Source: a virus. Taken from it: a stretch of DNA of 36,153 bases. The stretch spans positions 1 to 36,153 of IMG/VR virus record IMGVR_UViG_3300044729_001066, one strand, 5' to 3'. A program made the translations under genes and the position numbers. Positions 4,100 to 33,383 of the stretch are shown in pieces (position 1 is the stretch's first letter; the number at the start of each line of letters is the position of its first letter). The notes under the pieces are model-generated. The model searched no databases, had not been told where the DNA came from, and worked only from the letters and a program-made list of their open reading frames with translations.

Positions 4100-4510
4100 T
4101 TATTTACGTGAAATACCGCGTGGATCCTCGACTACTCCCTCAACGGAGTCATCATTGATAATCCTGAACTCTCGACCATGGATCTTTAGCCGTGTACCTG
4201 CATGGGGGCGCACGAGAATAAAATCCCCTTCCCTACACCAAGGTCCTGATGGGAACCTTGCGGCATCCTTATAGCAATCCGGCCCCATCTTTACGACAAA
4301 AAGAACCGTTGTTAGGAGTTCTTCGTGCTGGAGAGTCAGGTCAGATTTAAGGATTCCGCTTTCGTACTGCTCGTCTATATTAGGAATCCCGCACAAAATG
4401 CGGTATCCAGAGGGGTCTGGCAACTGTTTGGCTTTCCTATCGTCGGTGTCCGGTAGTACTGTTGCCTCGTTTGGGTCATCGGGGTTTGTGCCGATTAATA
4501 ATTCACTCAT
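4100..4510 (-). CDS. Phage GroES-like co-chaperonin, 136 aa
   Basis: Residues 35-127 follow the Cpn10 plan. A first strand GYRILCGIP is followed by YESGILKSD, at the place of the GroES mobile loop with its GGIV-type contact motif. Next comes FVVKMGPD like GroES 'VLAVGNG', then WCREGDFILVRPHAGTRLKI at the place of '[20 protein letters not shown]', and a final strand FRIINDDSVEGVV. A 30-residue acidic N-terminal extension is extra relative to bacterial GroES (about 97 aa). The protein probably caps host GroEL to help fold the capsid protein, as T4 gp31 does. The gene overlaps its upstream neighbour by 8 bases, inside the head operon between portal and scaffold. Confidence 0.72.
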   Translation of the reverse strand: MSELLIGTNPDDPNEATVLPDTDDRKAKQLPDPSGYRILCGIPNIDEQYESGILKSDLTLQHEELLTTVLFVVKMGPDCYKDAARFPSGPWCREGDFILVRPHAGTRLKIHGREFRIINDDSVEGVVEDPRGISRK

Positions 4511-10550: not shown

Positions 10551-10617
10551 ATACTCATAGCGCAAGTGTTTGTGCTATCCGACCCGGCGGTTTCCGGGTT
10601 TTTAAATGGAGCTATAT

Positions 10618-11277
10618 ATGTCAGAAAAAGACATGGTTTTCACTCCGACCCCTGTCAGCATTACCGACGGGGCTTATCAACAAGCTAAGCTACACGGCAC
10701 GACGAAATCCATCATCGCATCATTGATGGACATGATCCCCGGCTTAGGATTCAGCGACGACGCAATCAACGATGAAGTAAAGGTTGAATTGCGTAAGGGT
10801 TATGCCACTCGCTGGCATGAAGAGAATCCATCAACCTATTATGTCGCTGTTGACGGCAATTGGGTTAAATGCGAAAGCGAAGAGAAAATGCTCAGCCATA
10901 AAAAAGCTGACAAGTTTGTTCTCGATGTCCATACAGCTTTCGGATATACCCAACAAGCTTTCGGGGCTCTTAAAAACGAAGAGCCGTTAAAGCATAGCTT
11001 GATCAAAGAAACACGAGACAAGTTTAATAAATATGTCTCGAACCGGGTAGCCGATCTTAATCGTGAGGCTAAAAAGCTTTACCGGGAGCGCAACGGCATC
11101 GAAAATACCCGCTCGTCGGTTCCGTTGTTTTATGTATGGCTCACGGCTCCCGAAAAGGGGATCCTCTCTCAAATCCGACAGCGTTGCATCAATGCAAAAG
11201 CTAAGGGTGATGAGACTGCGGATCTCGCCAAGCTAGACAAGGCTCTTGCATCATTCAAGACTAGTCTAGACAAGTAG
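10618..11277 (+). CDS. Paralogue A of a duplicated early protein, 219 aa
   Basis: Start chosen at the ATG at 10618 (MSEKDMVFTPT) because GGAG lies six bases upstream; the ATG at 10606 would include that site. The protein is soluble and mostly helical. It is clearly related along its length to the next gene: both share a QAFG-LKN-(D/E)P block, a K(Y)-SNR segment, and a C-terminal CINAKAKGDETA / CKNAKARGDDTA block. It has its own promoter and terminator. No known domain recognised. High-level early expression is likely from the promoter and ribosome binding site. Confidence 0.78.
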   Translation: MSEKDMVFTPTPVSITDGAYQQAKLHGTTKSIIASLMDMIPGLGFSDDAINDEVKVELRKGYATRWHEENPSTYYVAVDGNWVKCESEEKMLSHKKADKFVLDVHTAFGYTQQAFGALKNEEPLKHSLIKETRDKFNKYVSNRVADLNREAKKLYRERNGIENTRSSVPLFYVWLTAPEKGILSQIRQRCINAKAKGDETADLAKLDKALASFKTSLDK

Positions 11278-11323: not shown

Positions 11324-11414
11324 CTTTGAAACCAGTTATTTTTCTGTGCGCGCGCGAGGACGGCGTGCGTGCGTGACCGCGTTCGCTATTTAGCGTTTCA
11401 CAGGGGGGTGAAAC
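11324..11414 (+). repeat. Intergenic cassette copy R2
   Basis: Begins CTTTGAAACCAGTTATTTTT and CTGTGCGCG, contains CGCTATTTAGCG, and ends in the perfect inverted repeat TTTCAC-(6)-GTGAAA (11396-11413). It lies between the paralogue A terminator and promoter P3. Confidence 0.78.
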
Positions 11415-11488: not shown

Positions 11489-12112
11489 ATGGCAAAAACT
11501 GCCACATGGTCTAGTGATCCTAAATCACTGCAGGACGCCGCCTACCAAGCGGCGCGGTCAATCGAGGGTGTAGAGTCCTCTGCTAAGTATGTTCTAGCAC
11601 AGTGCCCTACCTTTTCTACCGAGCAACCCACTGAAGTCAAGGAGGAGTTAGACAAGGGCTGGATTCTGAGATTCTCAGAATTGAACCCCGTAAAAACTTA
11701 CTTTCTTACTTCAGACGGTAAGAATTGGGTTTTGCCTTCGGACGGAATAGTACCCGAGAAGGTGGCAAAGCGGGAGATTGGCGTTCACTTCGCCATGAGT
11801 TTTAGTTCTCAGGCGTTCGGTACCCTAAAGAATTCTGATCCTTCCCTGTATCAGATTATTCTACCGGTTCGGACTGCCTTCTCTAAATACAAGTCTAATA
11901 GACTTGGCGATCTTCTGCGCCAGATCAGGAAGATCGAACGGGAACAAGCGGGCGAAGTCCTGCGGGCACCCACGAAAAACTTCGTGGACTTCTGTGCCGA
12001 CACCCTAGGCAATCTAGTGGTGCGATGCAAGAACGCGAAGGCGCGGGGTGATGACACCGCGAACCTTGATTTGCTAGCCAAGCAGATCGCCGCCTTCAAG
12101 GCGGTCAAGTAA
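11489..12112 (+). CDS. Paralogue B of a duplicated early protein, 207 aa
   Basis: Start chosen at the ATG at 11489 (MAKTATWSSDPK), six bases after AGGAGGT. It aligns with paralogue A over its whole length (AYQ-A near the N-terminus, QAFGTLKNSDP in the middle, KNAKARGDDTANL near the end) but is diverged, so the duplication is old. It is helical, soluble and without a known domain. It is followed by an 11-bp GAAA-capped hairpin (12119-12144) that lacks an immediate T-run. Function unknown; the paired cassettes suggest high or differently timed expression. Confidence 0.78.
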   Translation: MAKTATWSSDPKSLQDAAYQAARSIEGVESSAKYVLAQCPTFSTEQPTEVKEELDKGWILRFSELNPVKTYFLTSDGKNWVLPSDGIVPEKVAKREIGVHFAMSFSSQAFGTLKNSDPSLYQIILPVRTAFSKYKSNRLGDLLRQIRKIEREQAGEVLRAPTKNFVDFCADTLGNLVVRCKNAKARGDDTANLDLLAKQIAAFKAVK

Positions 12113-12118
12113 GACCTT

Positions 12119-12144
12119 CCCTCTGAGCAGAAATGCTCAGGGGG
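12119..12144 (+). other. GAAA-capped hairpin after paralogue B
   Basis: An 11-bp stem (CCCTCTGAGCA with TGCTCAGGGGG, one G-T pair) is closed by GAAA. No T-run follows directly, so termination would be weak; a T-rich stretch lies 14 bases further inside copy R3. It may protect the 3' end or allow partial read-through into the origin-like region. Confidence 0.6.
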
Positions 12145-12304
12145 ATTGAAACCAGTTATTTTTCTGTGAGCGCGTGCATAAACGCGTTGATCAAAATTAG
12201 GGACAGAAGAGCGACGCATACTACTTGCATCGTATAGAATTACGGAATTTGATAGGGTTCCAAGCCAAGACGGCTATTTAGCGTTTCACGTTCCGGTGAA
12301 ACGC
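12145..12304 (+). repeat. Intergenic cassette copy R3, without promoter or gene
   Basis: Begins ATTGAAACCAGTTATTTTTC and TGTGAGCGCG, and ends GGCTATTTAGC plus the perfect inverted repeat GCGTTTCAC/GTGAAACGC (12281-12304). Unlike R1 and R2 it has about 70 extra bases, no promoter after the inverted repeat, and no paralogous gene behind it. One GGTTCCA of the downstream array (12256) lies inside it. Confidence 0.7.
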
Positions 12305-12320
12305 GTTTTTTGCGAAATAT

Positions 12321-12668
12321 TGGAACCGTGTAAGTGCTTGATTTGCAAGGCTTTTTTGATGTCCGGTTCCAAGGTTCCAAGGTTCCACGTTTTTAGAGAA
12401 GAGAGCACCTTGGAAAACATGAGAGCAAGAGAGTAGACCCGCACGATGTAAATTAAGCAAAGTCCACAAAAAAATTGGCAAAAGGGAAATCGTTCATTTT
12501 TCACTGGAACCTTGGAACCACACCATTTTTCTCTCTCTACTACTACTACTACTAAATATTTTATATATATAAATCAATAACTTAGCAATCATCACCCCTA
12601 TCAAAATCACGGTTCCACGGTTCCAACACACCCCTTTTTCGTCCGGAACCACTGGAACCCATGGAACC
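12321..12668. other. Iteron-like array around an AT-rich core: candidate replication origin
   Basis: Eleven copies of GGTTCCA or its complement lie here: + at 12365, 12373, 12381, 12611 and 12619; - at 12321, 12505, 12513, 12644 (CGGAACC), 12653 and 12662. Spacing within clusters is 8-9 bases. Clusters alternate as +++, --, AT-rich core, ++, ---. The core (12551-12580) has only two G/C in 30 bases, and the two inner clusters are equally distant from its centre (about 12565). A (CTA)6 tract (12537-12554) adjoins it. Repeated sites beside an easily melted core are typical of iteron origins. No convincing gene overlaps. Confidence 0.6.
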
Positions 12669-12712
12669 ACGCCCAAACCTCCAGCCTGATATAAAAAAGT
12701 CATATAAAAGCC

Positions 12713-12741
12713 TTGGTTTAAAGGGTAGTATGTGATATAAT
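12713..12741 (+). promoter_or_regulatory. Promoter P4, main early promoter
   Basis: TTGGTT (12713-12718), 17 bases, then a perfect TATAAT (12736-12741) preceded by TGA, giving an extended -10. It is the best sigma70 match seen in the window and lies directly upstream of the boxA leader and the long plus-strand operon. Confidence 0.85.
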
Positions 12742-12781
12742 ATCATTCTAGTAAGAAAATATTTAACACCTCGCGCAGTAT

Positions 12782-12833
12782 TTCACGGCGGGGTGAATCG
12801 CTCTTTAACAATCCACAGCGCGGTGGGCAACCA
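12782..12833 (+). promoter_or_regulatory. rRNA-leader-like antitermination site (hairpin plus boxA)
   Basis: A hairpin TTCAC-(6)-GTGAA (12782-12797) is followed after two bases by GCTCTTTAACAAT (12800-12812), identical to the boxA of E. coli rRNA operon leaders as I know it. GGTGGGCA follows, recalling the rrn boxC (TGTGTGGGCA). The order promoter, hairpin, boxA, G-rich box is that of rrn leaders, which recruit NusB/NusE and make RNA polymerase resistant to termination. It lies about 50 bases after the expected P4 start and precedes a 20 kb operon. Confidence 0.72.
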
Positions 12834-12867
12834 TCGCCGTAGCCGTAGGCGTAGGGGTTCATTCCCG

Positions 12868-12928
12868 TTTCACGACGGGGTGAACTGCTATTTGTTTCAT
12901 CTCTGCCTTGTGCCGAGTCGGGCAACCA
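12868..12928 (+). repeat. Second, degenerate copy of the hairpin-boxA unit
   Basis: TTTCAC-(6)-GTGAA (12868-12884) is followed by CTGCTATTTGTTTCA at the place of boxA, and by GGGCAACCA (12920-12928), which also ends the first unit (12825-12833). The boxA-like part has diverged, so it may be inactive. Confidence 0.55.
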
Positions 12929-13347
12929 CAGCAACCTGATAATTAAAAACTACAAACAGGTAGGGGTTGGAGTACCGAACCACATTGCATCTGATTCTAA
13001 ATAGTTACCGAGCAGTACCGGCTTCGATAAGGGGATGGGCGAATCGCCAAGAGAGGCGAGGCGCAACGCAGGATTGGCACTCCGCAACATTCCCGTCGCG
13101 TAACCTTTCACCTACAGGTGACTGCCAAAAAAGCAGAGCGACAAAACAGTATCTCACCCGTCCGTGAAGACGTACCTATCTTTACAGAATCCCTTAGAAC
13201 ATAACTTCGGAAGCGTAGATTTGTGTAATGTAAAACCGCGAGTTAACTAGCACACTTTCTGCGCTTCCCTTGGTGTGTTCTACACCAAACCAACCTTAAC
13301 CATCTGGGCAAGCATCCCTTACCCTAACTACCTAGGAGGTATCAAAG
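12929..13347 (+). other. Long untranslated leader of the early operon
   Basis: About 420 bases precede the first clear start codon after P4. Open frames here lack ribosome binding sites and overlap the real gene in other frames. One more TTTCACC/AGGTGA hairpin occurs at 13106-13121. I looked for a tRNA-like T-loop and acceptor pairing and found none. The leader could hold a structured regulatory RNA, but I cannot name one. Confidence 0.45.
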
Positions 13348-13530
13348 ATGAAACCGGAAAACAAAGCCGCAAGACAAGCCATGAAGAAGGCAAAAGAACC
13401 TGCACTTCACCCGTGGCAGAAAAAACAATCGGGGTTCGTGTACAGGAAAACTCCGAGAGCGTACCAATACGAGACGTTCAGCGAGGATATTTTTATCGGG
13501 TACACATATATTAAAGGAGGGTCACGCTAA
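13348..13530 (+). CDS. Small basic protein, 60 aa, first gene of the long early operon
   Basis: Starts MKPENKAARQAMKKAKEPAL eight bases after a perfect AGGAGGT. The N-terminal third is very basic (Lys/Arg) and the C-terminal half is aromatic (YQYETFSEDIFIGYTYI), which could form a small beta domain. It ends in a TAATG overlap with the next gene. Function unknown. Confidence 0.7.
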   Translation: MKPENKAARQAMKKAKEPALHPWQKKQSGFVYRKTPRAYQYETFSEDIFIGYTYIKGGSR

Positions 13531-23185: not shown

Positions 23186-23802
23186 TGGCAATTGAGATTG
23201 ATGAAACTTTTTACTATTGGGGGCCATTTTTATGGAAAACAAAAGTAGATAAAGATTTTTGTAGTGAACTGCTTAAGAGATCAAAAAATACTAACGTTAA
23301 ATTTAATAAAAGTTTAGCCGGACACATAGATGAGGAATACAGATACCTTGAAAAAGATAAGGAGTGGTTCGTTAATAAAATGGCGCCTTATTTAGATAGG
23401 TACTTAAAATCTGGGGCACATTGGTATAAACAGTATTTAGAAAAAGAAGTTACTAAAATAAGTTTGGATAGTTTGTGGATAAACTTTATGAAAAAGGGAG
23501 ACTATAACCCTAAACACACCCATAACCATGATATAAGTTTTGTTTTGTATTTAAAAATTCCAGAAGTTTTAAGAGAAGAAAATAAAAAACTATTTGAATC
23601 TTCCACTCCTAACATAAGACCGGGTTGTATAGAATTTTTTTATGGAGAAGAAGCAGATACTTTTATTACATCTCATGTTTTTTTACCAGAAGAAACAGAT
23701 TTGTTTATATTTCCGTCGAAGTTACGGCATTTAGTAGCACCATTTAAAAGTAACTGCGTGCGAGTTTCAGTTTCGGGTAATTTTAAGATAGAAAAAGAAT
23801 AG
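23185..23802 (+). CDS. 2OG-Fe(II) oxygenase-like protein, 205 aa
   Basis: SLWINFMKKGDYNPKHTHNH (95-114), followed by DISFVLYL, is the N-terminal half of the iron site typical of the phage 2OG oxygenases; FPSKLRHLVAPF (176-187, H182) and VRVSVSGNF (R193) give the distal His and the 2-oxoglutarate Arg. Substrates of the phage members are largely unknown. Two 60-base lines I counted here have about 25-28% G+C, against 45% in a line of the glycosyltransferase gene, and codons favour AAA, AGA and TTA. This indicates recent acquisition from an A/T-rich phage. Confidence 0.8.
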   Translation: MAIEIDETFYYWGPFLWKTKVDKDFCSELLKRSKNTNVKFNKSLAGHIDEEYRYLEKDKEWFVNKMAPYLDRYLKSGAHWYKQYLEKEVTKISLDSLWINFMKKGDYNPKHTHNHDISFVLYLKIPEVLREENKKLFESSTPNIRPGCIEFFYGEEADTFITSHVFLPEETDLFIFPSKLRHLVAPFKSNCVRVSVSGNFKIEKE

Positions 23803-30417: not shown

Positions 30418-30431
30418 GCGGATTATTGTCA

Positions 30432-30457
30432 GGCAGGGTTGGTGCCCTGCCTTTATT
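30432..30457 (+). terminator. Terminator between HTH and primase genes
   Basis: A perfect stem AGGCAGGG/CCCTGCCT (30431-30438 with 30445-30452) with a 6-base loop is followed by TTATTGT, a moderate T-tract. It would stop or reduce read-through into the primase-helicase gene, unless antitermination is active. Confidence 0.72.
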
Positions 30458-30470
30458 GTCTCTAATACAC

Positions 30471-33383
30471 ATGTATAAAACATTTATTGAGACAGTCTTG
30501 CCGTCAGAAGGTACTTATGTAATAACAGGGATAAACGCAGAAAACAAAAAAGATGTGCGGCAAAAGTATGCGGAGAGTTTAGAGGACGCATACACAATCA
30601 TTGAGGACTTCAAAAAGAAATCACCGCTAAACATTTATTTTGCTTTATCCACGTTTGAAGGATTTTCACGGAAGGCTGTAGACAGCATTTACATCAAGAG
30701 TTTTTTCCTTGATCTTGATGTAGGCAAAGAAAACAACAGTTACGCTACCAAGGAAGAAGCCCTTGCCGGGCTTGCACAGTTTTTACTAAATACTCGCATG
30801 CCTGAGCCAACCATCATTGACTCAGGTAATGGTTTGCATGTCTATTGGATACTCAAGGAAGAGATTGAGACCAAGAGGTGGAAACCTTATGCCGAGGGCT
30901 TTAAGAAGTTATGTGTAGACAATAAATTGGTGATCGACCCTGCCGTACCTGCTGACGCGGCGCGGGTTCTTCGCGTGCCATACACATTAAATTACAACGT
31001 CAAAGAGGGGCAGGCGCCCATTGAGGTGACGTTTTTAAATGATATTAAATTATTTGACTTAGATGAATTGACACCTTTCTTTGGTGGTATTCAGCAAGAG
31101 TCTTCCTTTGACCTGTCTCAAGCCAAGAAAGGCTTAGACGATGAAACCCGAAAAATGTTGGGGTTAGATAACTATGAATACGTATTTCAAACAATTGCCT
31201 TTGAATCCCTTCAAGGACGAGGATGTAACCAAATCAAGTGGATGCTCCAAAACGCCGCTAGTTGTCCGGAGCCACTGTGGAAAGCTGGACTATCTGTCGC
31301 CATTAGGTGTGTTGATGGCGATACTGCCATACATTCCATGTCCGAAGACCACCCCCAGTACAGCCACGCAGAAACCGAAAAGAAAGCCCGAGACTGCCTA
31401 CAAGCAACGTGGTCTTACTCCTGTGAGGCTTTCGAAAACACAAACCCCGGAGGATGCACAGGATGTCCGTTCAAGGGAAAAATATCCTACCCGACCCATA
31501 TTGGAAAGCGGCTACGACTCGCGGAGTCGGGGGCTGACGATGCACACATACCCGACACAAGAACCCCCGAAACAAGGGATCTTAGCGATACAGAAGATAA
31601 AAAGAACGGGCCTGTACAGAATAAATTCCCGAAAGAGTTCATAACTTTTCCGCAGTTTTTATATCCATATGTTCGCCCTGTGGCGGGTGGGGTATGGTAC
31701 GAACCCCCTAGTGAGCATAAGAAAGACGGGACGGTCATCAAGAAAGATCCAATAATGATCTTGAATCAAGACTTTGTTCCCATGAAACGTCTTTATAGCC
31801 CCAACGATGGGGAGTGCTTACACATGCGGCTGTATTTGCCACATGACGGAGTTCGGGAATTTATCTTACCCATGTCGGCAGTGTATGCGCCAGACAAATT
31901 TAAAGAGTTCGTTGCCAAGAGTGGTGTGCTGGTTACGTTTACATTGATTGATAAATTAAGGGATTATCTTGTGAAGTGGTCACAATATCTAAAACAGTAC
32001 CAAAAAGCTGACGATATGCGGTTAGCTATGGGTTGGATTGACGAACCTGAGTATGGGTCTTTTGTGGCGGGTAAGGTGGAGATTACCCCAACGGGTAGGT
32101 TTGACTGTCCTGTAACACCTGCAGCGAGAAACGTAGCCGACAAGATTTATGAATCCGGATCGTTCGATACGTGGCAGAAGAGCGCTAATAAACTTAATCA
32201 ACCGGGGTTTGAGTACCATGCCCTAGGGTTATTGATGGGGTTTGGTTCCCCTCTAGTGCCTTTTAGTTCTGCTAGCGGCCTAATGATTAGTTTGTCAGGT
32301 GAAAAAGGGACAGGTAAAACAGCGGCTATGCTTGGTGGCTTATCTGTGTTTGGTCACCCCGAAGAACAAATGATTGTTACCTTGGATGGGGCAACCGTAA
32401 ATGGTTTATGGGAAAGGGCATCAACCCTAAAAAACTTAATGATGGGTATTGATGAGACTTCAAATGCCAAACCCGAAAAGCTATCCGATATTATTTACAA
32501 AGGGCCGATGAACAACCAAGGCAAGATTCGTAGCCAAACAAGTTACAACATGGAGCGTAAGCAACGCGGGGGATCTAAGAACCTTACTTTGCTGACTACT
32601 AACCAGTCTAATAAAGACAAGATGTTTATGGTTAAGAGCGACCCCGGTGGAGAGTTACGGCGCTTACTAGAGTTAGATATCACCGAGAATGGCAGACTTG
32701 TAGACTCTTTGGGTGTTGAGATTTTCCAACCATTCAAGACTAACTTTGGTCATGCTGGGCCAGCTTTTGTTGACTTTTGTTATGGATTGGGTATTCCTGA
32801 AGTTAACCGCACGGTTCAAAAATGGAACAACAGATATCGGCAAGAATTTTACAATGACTCAGCTTACTCATTTTGGAATGGAGGTATGGCGGCAATCATG
32901 GGGGGTGCAGAAATTGCCGAACGCGCTGGCATAGTTTCTATAGATTACGAGCGGTTATATGTATTTATGCTGGAGAGGATGCGCCGCCTTCACCATGAGT
33001 ACTCTAGTGCCGGGGTTAACTTTGAGGATCTGCTCAGTGAGTTCTTGTCCATAAACATGAACGGTATCTTAGCCTTTAATGAGTCAGATAAGGTGTCGGT
33101 TGAGCCACGCGGCAAAGACTTAGTCGCGCGGGCAGAGGTTACGGAGGGTAAAGTTTGGATCGCCAAGACCGCTATTAAAGAGTTCTTGCATGAGAAGCAG
33201 ATCAATGTAAGCCAATTTGAATCAGAACTATTGAAGAAGGGCGTAATGCTTAACAGCAAAGCCAAGAAGAAAATGGCGGCGGGGTGGAAATCGGCTATCG
33301 GGGCTATGAATTTGTGGTGTTATGAGGTGAAACTTGACGTTTCTGATGTGATAAATGACAAAGAAACAGGACCTACTGACTGA
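30471..33383 (+). CDS. Primase-helicase fusion (AEP primase plus DUF927-type helicase), 970 aa
   Basis: The start is placed at the ATG at 30471 (MYKTFIETVLPSEG); the longer TTG frame would cross the terminator. The N-terminal primase shows FLDLDVG (D81/D83), SGNGLHVYW (H123) and DPAVPADAARVLRVP (R165), the catalytic set of archaeo-eukaryotic primases. A Cys pair CTGC (C329/C332) follows. The helicase shows Walker A GEKGTGKT (610-617) and GIDETSN (D661/E662), with LLTTNQS as sensor. It primes and unwinds the phage genome. No Shine-Dalgarno is visible, but TCTAAT (30461-30466) lies just upstream, so the mRNA could be nearly leaderless. Confidence 0.9.
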   Translation: MYKTFIETVLPSEGTYVITGINAENKKDVRQKYAESLEDAYTIIEDFKKKSPLNIYFALSTFEGFSRKAVDSIYIKSFFLDLDVGKENNSYATKEEALAGLAQFLLNTRMPEPTIIDSGNGLHVYWILKEEIETKRWKPYAEGFKKLCVDNKLVIDPAVPADAARVLRVPYTLNYNVKEGQAPIEVTFLNDIKLFDLDELTPFFGGIQQESSFDLSQAKKGLDDETRKMLGLDNYEYVFQTIAFESLQGRGCNQIKWMLQNAASCPEPLWKAGLSVAIRCVDGDTAIHSMSEDHPQYSHAETEKKARDCLQATWSYSCEAFENTNPGGCTGCPFKGKISYPTHIGKRLRLAESGADDAHIPDTRTPETRDLSDTEDKKNGPVQNKFPKEFITFPQFLYPYVRPVAGGVWYEPPSEHKKDGTVIKKDPIMILNQDFVPMKRLYSPNDGECLHMRLYLPHDGVREFILPMSAVYAPDKFKEFVAKSGVLVTFTLIDKLRDYLVKWSQYLKQYQKADDMRLAMGWIDEPEYGSFVAGKVEITPTGRFDCPVTPAARNVADKIYESGSFDTWQKSANKLNQPGFEYHALGLLMGFGSPLVPFSSASGLMISLSGEKGTGKTAAMLGGLSVFGHPEEQMIVTLDGATVNGLWERASTLKNLMMGIDETSNAKPEKLSDIIYKGPMNNQGKIRSQTSYNMERKQRGGSKNLTLLTTNQSNKDKMFMVKSDPGGELRRLLELDITENGRLVDSLGVEIFQPFKTNFGHAGPAFVDFCYGLGIPEVNRTVQKWNNRYRQEFYNDSAYSFWNGGMAAIMGGAEIAERAGIVSIDYERLYVFMLERMRRLHHEYSSAGVNFEDLLSEFLSINMNGILAFNESDKVSVEPRGKDLVARAEVTEGKVWIAKTAIKEFLHEKQINVSQFESELLKKGVMLNSKAKKKMAAGWKSAIGAMNLWCYEVKLDVSDVINDKETGPTD

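Follow-up and report, generated by a model that had tools for sequence, protein, structure and literature searches.

Mirrored iteron clusters around an easily melted core as the probable replication origin in a tailed-phage genome fragment

The mirrored repeats found at the most easily melted spot of the 36,153-nt window analyzed here (an entire IMG/VR record, representing a linear piece of the genome of a tailed phage) very probably mark the place where copying of the phage DNA begins. Taken as a whole, the section 12256-12668 is best explained as a replication origin with a Rep-like primase-helicase of 985 amino acid residues as its initiator, and we consider this explanation quite likely to be correct. 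The sequence-only reading had proposed an origin at this location. Its proposal is supported by a pattern that is kept in relatives and by an initiator candidate with homology to SaPI Rep and Cch. The best reading, made by analogy, is that in this non-satellite phage family the origin would work in the manner of those of the PICIs, the phage-parasitizing genomic islands to which the SaPIs belong. The observed features are the repeat array, the melting-prone core, their conservation, the helical phasing, the Rep homology and the iteron-Rep covariation. For most uncultured phages the replication origins are unknown, while here a recognizable probable origin comes with a candidate initiator in which a putative recognition residue can be tested.

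The repeat array and its genomic setting

The 413 bp of this section contain 11 of the 16 exact copies of GGTTCCA or TGGAACC present in the window. The expectation from dinucleotide shuffling is 4.67 copies for the whole window, which corresponds to about 0.05 per 413 bp (Poisson P of about 2e-22). Exact units of the plus orientation start at 12365, 12373, 12381, 12611 and 12619, and those of the minus orientation at 12505, 12513, 12653 and 12662. The sequence-only reading had placed and oriented the clusters as they are found, but two more exact units at the left, 12256 (plus) and 12321 (minus), were missing from its list, and the unit at 12644, with which it opened the rightmost cluster, is imperfect (CGGAACC, 12644-12650). 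Its spacing of 8-9 bases agrees with a period of 8 bp within the clusters and 9 bp in the rightmost one. The centers of the two inner clusters, measured at 12512 and 12618, are each 53 bp from the center of the core, about as described, and 12505-12519 is the exact reverse complement of 12365-12379, as had also been noticed. The accompanying idea of large hairpins added nothing to the analysis. The coordinates of all features are given in Table 1.

Table 1. Features of the putative origin, its flanking signals and the candidate initiator gene
Feature	Position	Strand	Remarks
Outlying iteron GGTTCCA	12256-12262	+	Exact match; invariant in L086 and L100
Intrinsic terminator ending upstream transcription unit	12281-12310	+	GCGTTTCAC-loop-GTGAAACGC followed by GTTTTTT
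Left-half iteron TGGAACC	12321-12327	-	Exact match; invariant in relatives
Conserved motif TAAGTGCTTGATTT (reverse complement AAATCAAGCACTTA)	12331-12344	-	Inverted partner of 12571-12584; recurs in relatives
Left iteron cluster, 3 x GGTTCCA, 8-bp period	12365-12387	+	Conserved
Spacer of 117 bp separating inverted clusters	12388-12504		107 bp in L086, 119 bp in L100
Central iteron cluster, 2 x TGGAACC, 8-bp period	12505-12519	-	Left border of unwinding element
Presumed DNA unwinding element	12535-12584		Lowest nearest-neighbor stability of any 50-bp duplex in the window
(CTA)6, DnaA-trio-like (3'-GAT-5' on bottom strand)	12537-12554	+	Varies among relatives
Conserved motif AAATCAATAACTTA	12571-12584	+	Far edge of AT-rich tract
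Iteron cluster, 2 x GGTTCCA	12611-12625	+	Right border of unwinding element
Rightmost iteron cluster, two exact units plus an imperfect one	12644-12668	-	Last unit not retained in L086 and L100
Sigma70-like promoter of rightward operon, extended -10	12713-12741	+	TTGGTT-17-TATAAT, TGATATAAT; -10 at 12736-12741
985-aa primase-helicase, candidate initiator	30426-33383	+	AEP-like N-terminus, DUF927/Cch-SaPI Rep helicase, C-terminal winged helix

The AT-rich core that had been noted between the inner clusters is real. In a nearest-neighbor calculation it contains the least stable duplex of the 36-kb window at 30 bp (12550-12579), at 50 bp (12535-12584) and at 70 bp (12524-12593).

The array is located in a non-coding gap (12113-13347) with a terminator and a promoter on either side. 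No gene accounts for it, in agreement with the sequence-only reading, and only spurious minus-strand reading frames of 67-72 aa cross the AT core. The promoter at 12713 was read from the sequence; its -35 element is weak, an automatic scan lists a different pairing, and its TGTGATATAAT is invariant in three relatives. Leftward genes include those for the major head protein, the portal and the large terminase, and the terminase genes are 3-4 kb from the array. To the right are found a DUF3150/AAA/VWA cassette, a family-A DNA polymerase, a RecB-like nuclease, a SNF2 helicase, a 105-aa HTH protein and the 985-aa primase-helicase. To place the array just upstream of the replication operon, as the sequence-only reading did, is loosely right: the next genes begin at 13348, and the polymerase and the primase-helicase are 11.4 kb and 17.8 kb downstream of the array, all of them on the same strand. 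GC skew was set aside as evidence for an origin, since gene orientation switches near the array and makes it uninformative. The window gave no nucleotide match in phage records, and no Rfam hits or tRNAs were found in it.

Several other features of the region were observed. The untranslated leader of the rightward operon, about 600 nt long (12745-13347), is conserved and carries a boxA-like antitermination element, CGCTCTTTAACA, at 12799-12810, which also occurs in L086, L100, L088, L091, L139 and L125. Dyads of the form TTTCAC-N5-GTGAA are found before genes and in the leader, at 11396, 12284, 12781 and 12868, and the copy at 12284 is at the same time the stem of the terminator. Paralogous proteins of 223 and 207 aa are encoded just upstream of the origin (10606-11277 and 11489-12112) and most relatives have them, frequently as a pair. 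A gene for a GroES-like co-chaperonin is located at 4100-4510 within the head and packaging block.

Conservation and arm spacing among relatives

Absence of the repeat pattern from close relatives would have spoken against the proposal, but the pattern proved to be present. The relatives were gathered through the AAA ATPase gene 3 kb downstream, because the loci should not be selected by the repeat itself, and the DNA upstream was scanned in a motif-agnostic manner for a tandem of any 7-mer with a tandem of its reverse complement after it (maximum score 28). An inverted tandem-iteron array was found in 54 of the 76 AAA-anchored loci, with scores of 26-28, and in none of 228 shuffles, which never scored above 24. 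In the remaining 22 of the 76 loci the scan gave no clear array, the repeats being short, degenerate or of another type. Inverted tandem arrays were found in 75 of 240 fetched loci and in no shuffles. Most of the iteron words can be derived from [N][G/A]TTC[C/T]A; they differ between phages and are identical in both arms of one phage. In two closer relatives, L086 and L100, all exact units in the central array but the rightmost are retained despite indels, and between the closest relatives the spacers and the AT tract (ATATATA versus AATAATAAT) differ while the units stay. Among 32 non-redundant relatives, 24 have the sequence CAAnnACTTA after the AT tract and no more than 80 nt from the right pair of iterons.

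The distances between the inner edges of the inverted clusters fall into groups at 95, 104-109, 115-120 and 126-129 bp. Few spacings are outside these classes (84, 92 and 135-151 bp), and none is found at 110-114 or 121-125 bp. The classes require at least nine changes on the AAA tree. The period of about 11 bp, in a sample that is phylogenetically correlated, is close to one helical turn. This suggests that the proteins bound at the two clusters must face each other.

The same arrangement is present in two cultured Pseudomonas phages, KPP25 and phiR18, where TGTTACGA iterons surround an AT-rich core within the corresponding gap. The helicase of KPP25 is of the DUF5906 type instead of DUF927; helicase type and iteron word thus differ together while the layout remains constant. 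A second inverted array, TGTTACG/CGTGACA, is found in KPP25 at 58333-58537 (L268 43334-43538), before the virion block, and is possibly a second origin. In L094, an apparently unrelated contig that bears an integrase, a GGTTCCA array immediately adjoins the operon of a Prim-Pol and an AAA_25 helicase. Mirrored GGTTCCA arrays are also seen in two GC-rich, apparently unrelated contigs (L093 2627-2853 and L096 1133-1408), in which a DUF927 helicase was not found. In Rollin and RHph_TM3_14A a DUF927 Rep is present and a clear tandem-iteron array was not found; RHph_TM3_14A has an inverted pair, AAATCAATGGCTTAG/CTAACCCATTGATTT, which resembles the conserved motif.

The candidate initiator and alternative explanations

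A profile was built from 27 relatives of the 985-aa protein. In hmmsearch its C-terminal half proved homologous to SCCmec Cch (PDB code 5dgk, E=2.9e-21) and SaPIbov1 Rep (PDB code 8tch, E=1.6e-20), the matches to these solved structures spanning profile residues of about 505-930. The same two proteins are the best Foldseek matches of the predicted model (SaPIbov1 Rep, E of about 1e-16; Cch, E of about 6e-20), and the PrimPol fold is among its other matches. All but one of the 28 larger relative records encode this protein, the exception being a fragment that ends 8 kb past the AAA gene. SaPI Rep binds its iterons via the C-terminal domain (PMC7581432).

Residue 949 of Rep is Arg or Lys in all 23 phages whose iteron has G at position 2 (22 typed phages and one with a disrupted frame, which has Arg at 949), and it is Gln or His in all nine phages of the A type (xATTCCA), which belong to two separate Rep clades. 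For L245, L260, L283, L284, L286, L290 and L291 the iteron was typed before residue 949 was read, although several of these come from clades already seen. The Rep gene of L286 has an in-frame TGA, which may be a sequencing error, recoding or a broken gene. Among 920 Rep columns only 808 and 949, both in the C-terminal third, separate the iteron classes. No separating residue was found in nine control proteins (HTH, SSB-like, AAA, DUF3150, VWA, TerL, putative TerS, 207-aa and 96-aa), most of whose sets are larger than the Rep set, which makes perfect separation harder. With random clade pairs at least one separating column occurred in 32 of 74 cases and at least two in 19 of 74; such a column within residues 900-985 occurred in 8 of 76, and one exclusive to Arg/Lys in 1 of 76. 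For the third iteron variant, with T in place of C at position 6, no Rep column separates perfectly. The comparison, which exceeds the clade-pair null only moderately, suggests that the C-terminal domain of Rep reads the iteron. The covariation is good but not conclusive support, with two clades behind the A type.

The sequence-only reading had listed several possible binders. Only the primase-helicase is supported among them; neither the 105-aa HTH protein nor the 219/207-aa paralogues contain a residue that tracks the iteron change. The 207-aa paralogue had been considered as an initiator; its model is confident (pLDDT 93.5), but it was dropped because it has no match to a solved fold and no covariation.

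These data allow us to propose a mechanism, of which binding, melting, loading, priming and the direction of the fork are inferred steps. Copies of the Rep-like primase-helicase would bind the GGTTCCA iterons through the C-terminal winged-helix domain, and initiator complexes would assemble on the two inverted clusters at the same face of the helix. The AT-rich element could then be melted between the minus and plus clusters. The primase-helicase may load there as helicase hexamers, its fused AEP domain would prime DNA synthesis, and the phage family-A DNA polymerase would extend the primed strands. A more detailed version is put forward only tentatively and may well be wrong: the initiator complexes of the clusters would touch across about 10-12 helical turns, Arg/Lys at Rep 949 would read G and Gln/His would read A at iteron position 2, and in part of the family melting would be guided by a trio-like single-stranded motif that the phage initiator, and not DnaA, recognizes.

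Host DnaA itself might open the (CTA)n/AT-rich element via trios, with the iteron protein merely assisting, which we find unlikely. The DnaA-trio consensus is 3'-[G/A]AT-5' (PMC10797057), and the (CTA)6 immediately before the AT tract agrees with it, forming 3'-[G/A]A[T/A]-5' repeats beside an initiator box with AT-rich DNA next. Runs of at least three CTA/CTT are also strand-specific, being found on the trio strand in 11 of 32 relatives and on the opposite strand in none of the 32. However, two thirds of the relatives lack the trio, which is thus not conserved across the family, and YTW runs in general have no preferred strand (P=0.21). No TTWTNCACA box is located near the array, the only match in the window being at 23474. 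Exact DnaA boxes, TTATCCACA, are about 18-fold enriched in the origin windows of relatives (L162, L165, L169, L172, L181 and L221), so host DnaA may help in those relatives. The DnaA-trio reading was attractive in an early pattern search that demanded CTACTACTA, but the AAA-anchored sample, free of that bias, showed that the trio is not universal. The same pattern had 17 matches in cellular genomes; by eye none has a long AT tract next to it, and the matches seem to be fortuitous. The locus was not assigned to the DnaA-trio origins because most relatives have no trio and no DnaA box is nearby.

The repeats could also serve as an operator, at which a phage regulator binds GGTTCCA and controls the 12713 promoter of the rightward early/replication operon. 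Inverted repeats are common among operators, and a conserved extended -10 promoter is located 45 bp downstream of the last iteron. Nevertheless, we judge this quite unlikely: an operator requires neither the least stable duplex nor a mirrored 300-bp array with helical phasing, and no residue tracking the iteron change is found in the adjacent 207/223-aa paralogues or the 105-aa HTH protein. In addition, autoregulation by the initiator could coexist with origin function. A packaging or partition site, to which the small terminase subunit or a Par protein would bind, would suit the nearby terminase genes, and both pac sites and centromeres may be built from repeats. It would not need an unwinding-prone core, though, and neither the putative TerS nor TerL has a residue that tracks the iteron change, while no ParA/ParB gene was recognized among the scanned genes; this explanation is highly improbable. 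A replication origin with the Rep-like initiator remains the preferred reading.

Comparison with known origins

In the iteron plasmids RK2 and F and in the lambda origin, direct repeats likewise adjoin an AT-rich unwinding element. Their initiators are Rep or O proteins without helicase activity, and no homologue was recognized in the window. The DnaA-trio basal unwinding system of the bacterial oriC has the identical order of a box pair, 3'-GAT-5' repeats and an AT tract; the boxes here, however, are TGGAACC and not DnaA boxes, and the trio is missing in most relatives. SCCmec Cch and Cch2 are similar in the helicase half, which is homologous in Cch, and in the direct-repeat origin shown for Cch2, whose iteron is AAGTG (PMC7581432). 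In contrast, SCC elements are chromosomal cassettes and Cch has no fused primase.

The closest likeness is to the PICI/SaPI origins of the SaPIbov1 type. PICI origins always consist of two iteron sets flanking an AT-rich region, an arrangement common to no other known bacterial replicon (PMC6092414). The short iteron sets 12505-12519 and 12611-12625 flank the AT-rich melting site in the same manner. The initiator helicase, homologous to SaPI Rep and Cch by hmmsearch and Foldseek, also resembles the self-loading PICI initiator with its DUF927 and C-terminal winged-helix domains and an AEP-type primase. The differences are equally clear. The primase is here fused to Rep, and the origin (12.3-12.7 kb) is not directly downstream of rep (30.4-33.4 kb) but about 18 kb from it. 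These phages have their own capsid (major head protein), portal and terminase genes, whereas a PICI is a satellite that borrows virion genes from its helper. The phage was not classified as a PICI because both the rep-origin adjacency and the satellite features are absent. The array itself is distinguished by at least four clusters of 7-bp units, by the conserved CAAnnACTTA motifs and by spacing steps of one turn. Both the spacing rule and the pairing of residue and base are open to direct laboratory tests. The phage family concerned is large and uncultured and is seen in dozens of metagenome contigs. The satellite origin design is tied here to non-satellite phages, which bears on where PICI replicons arose.
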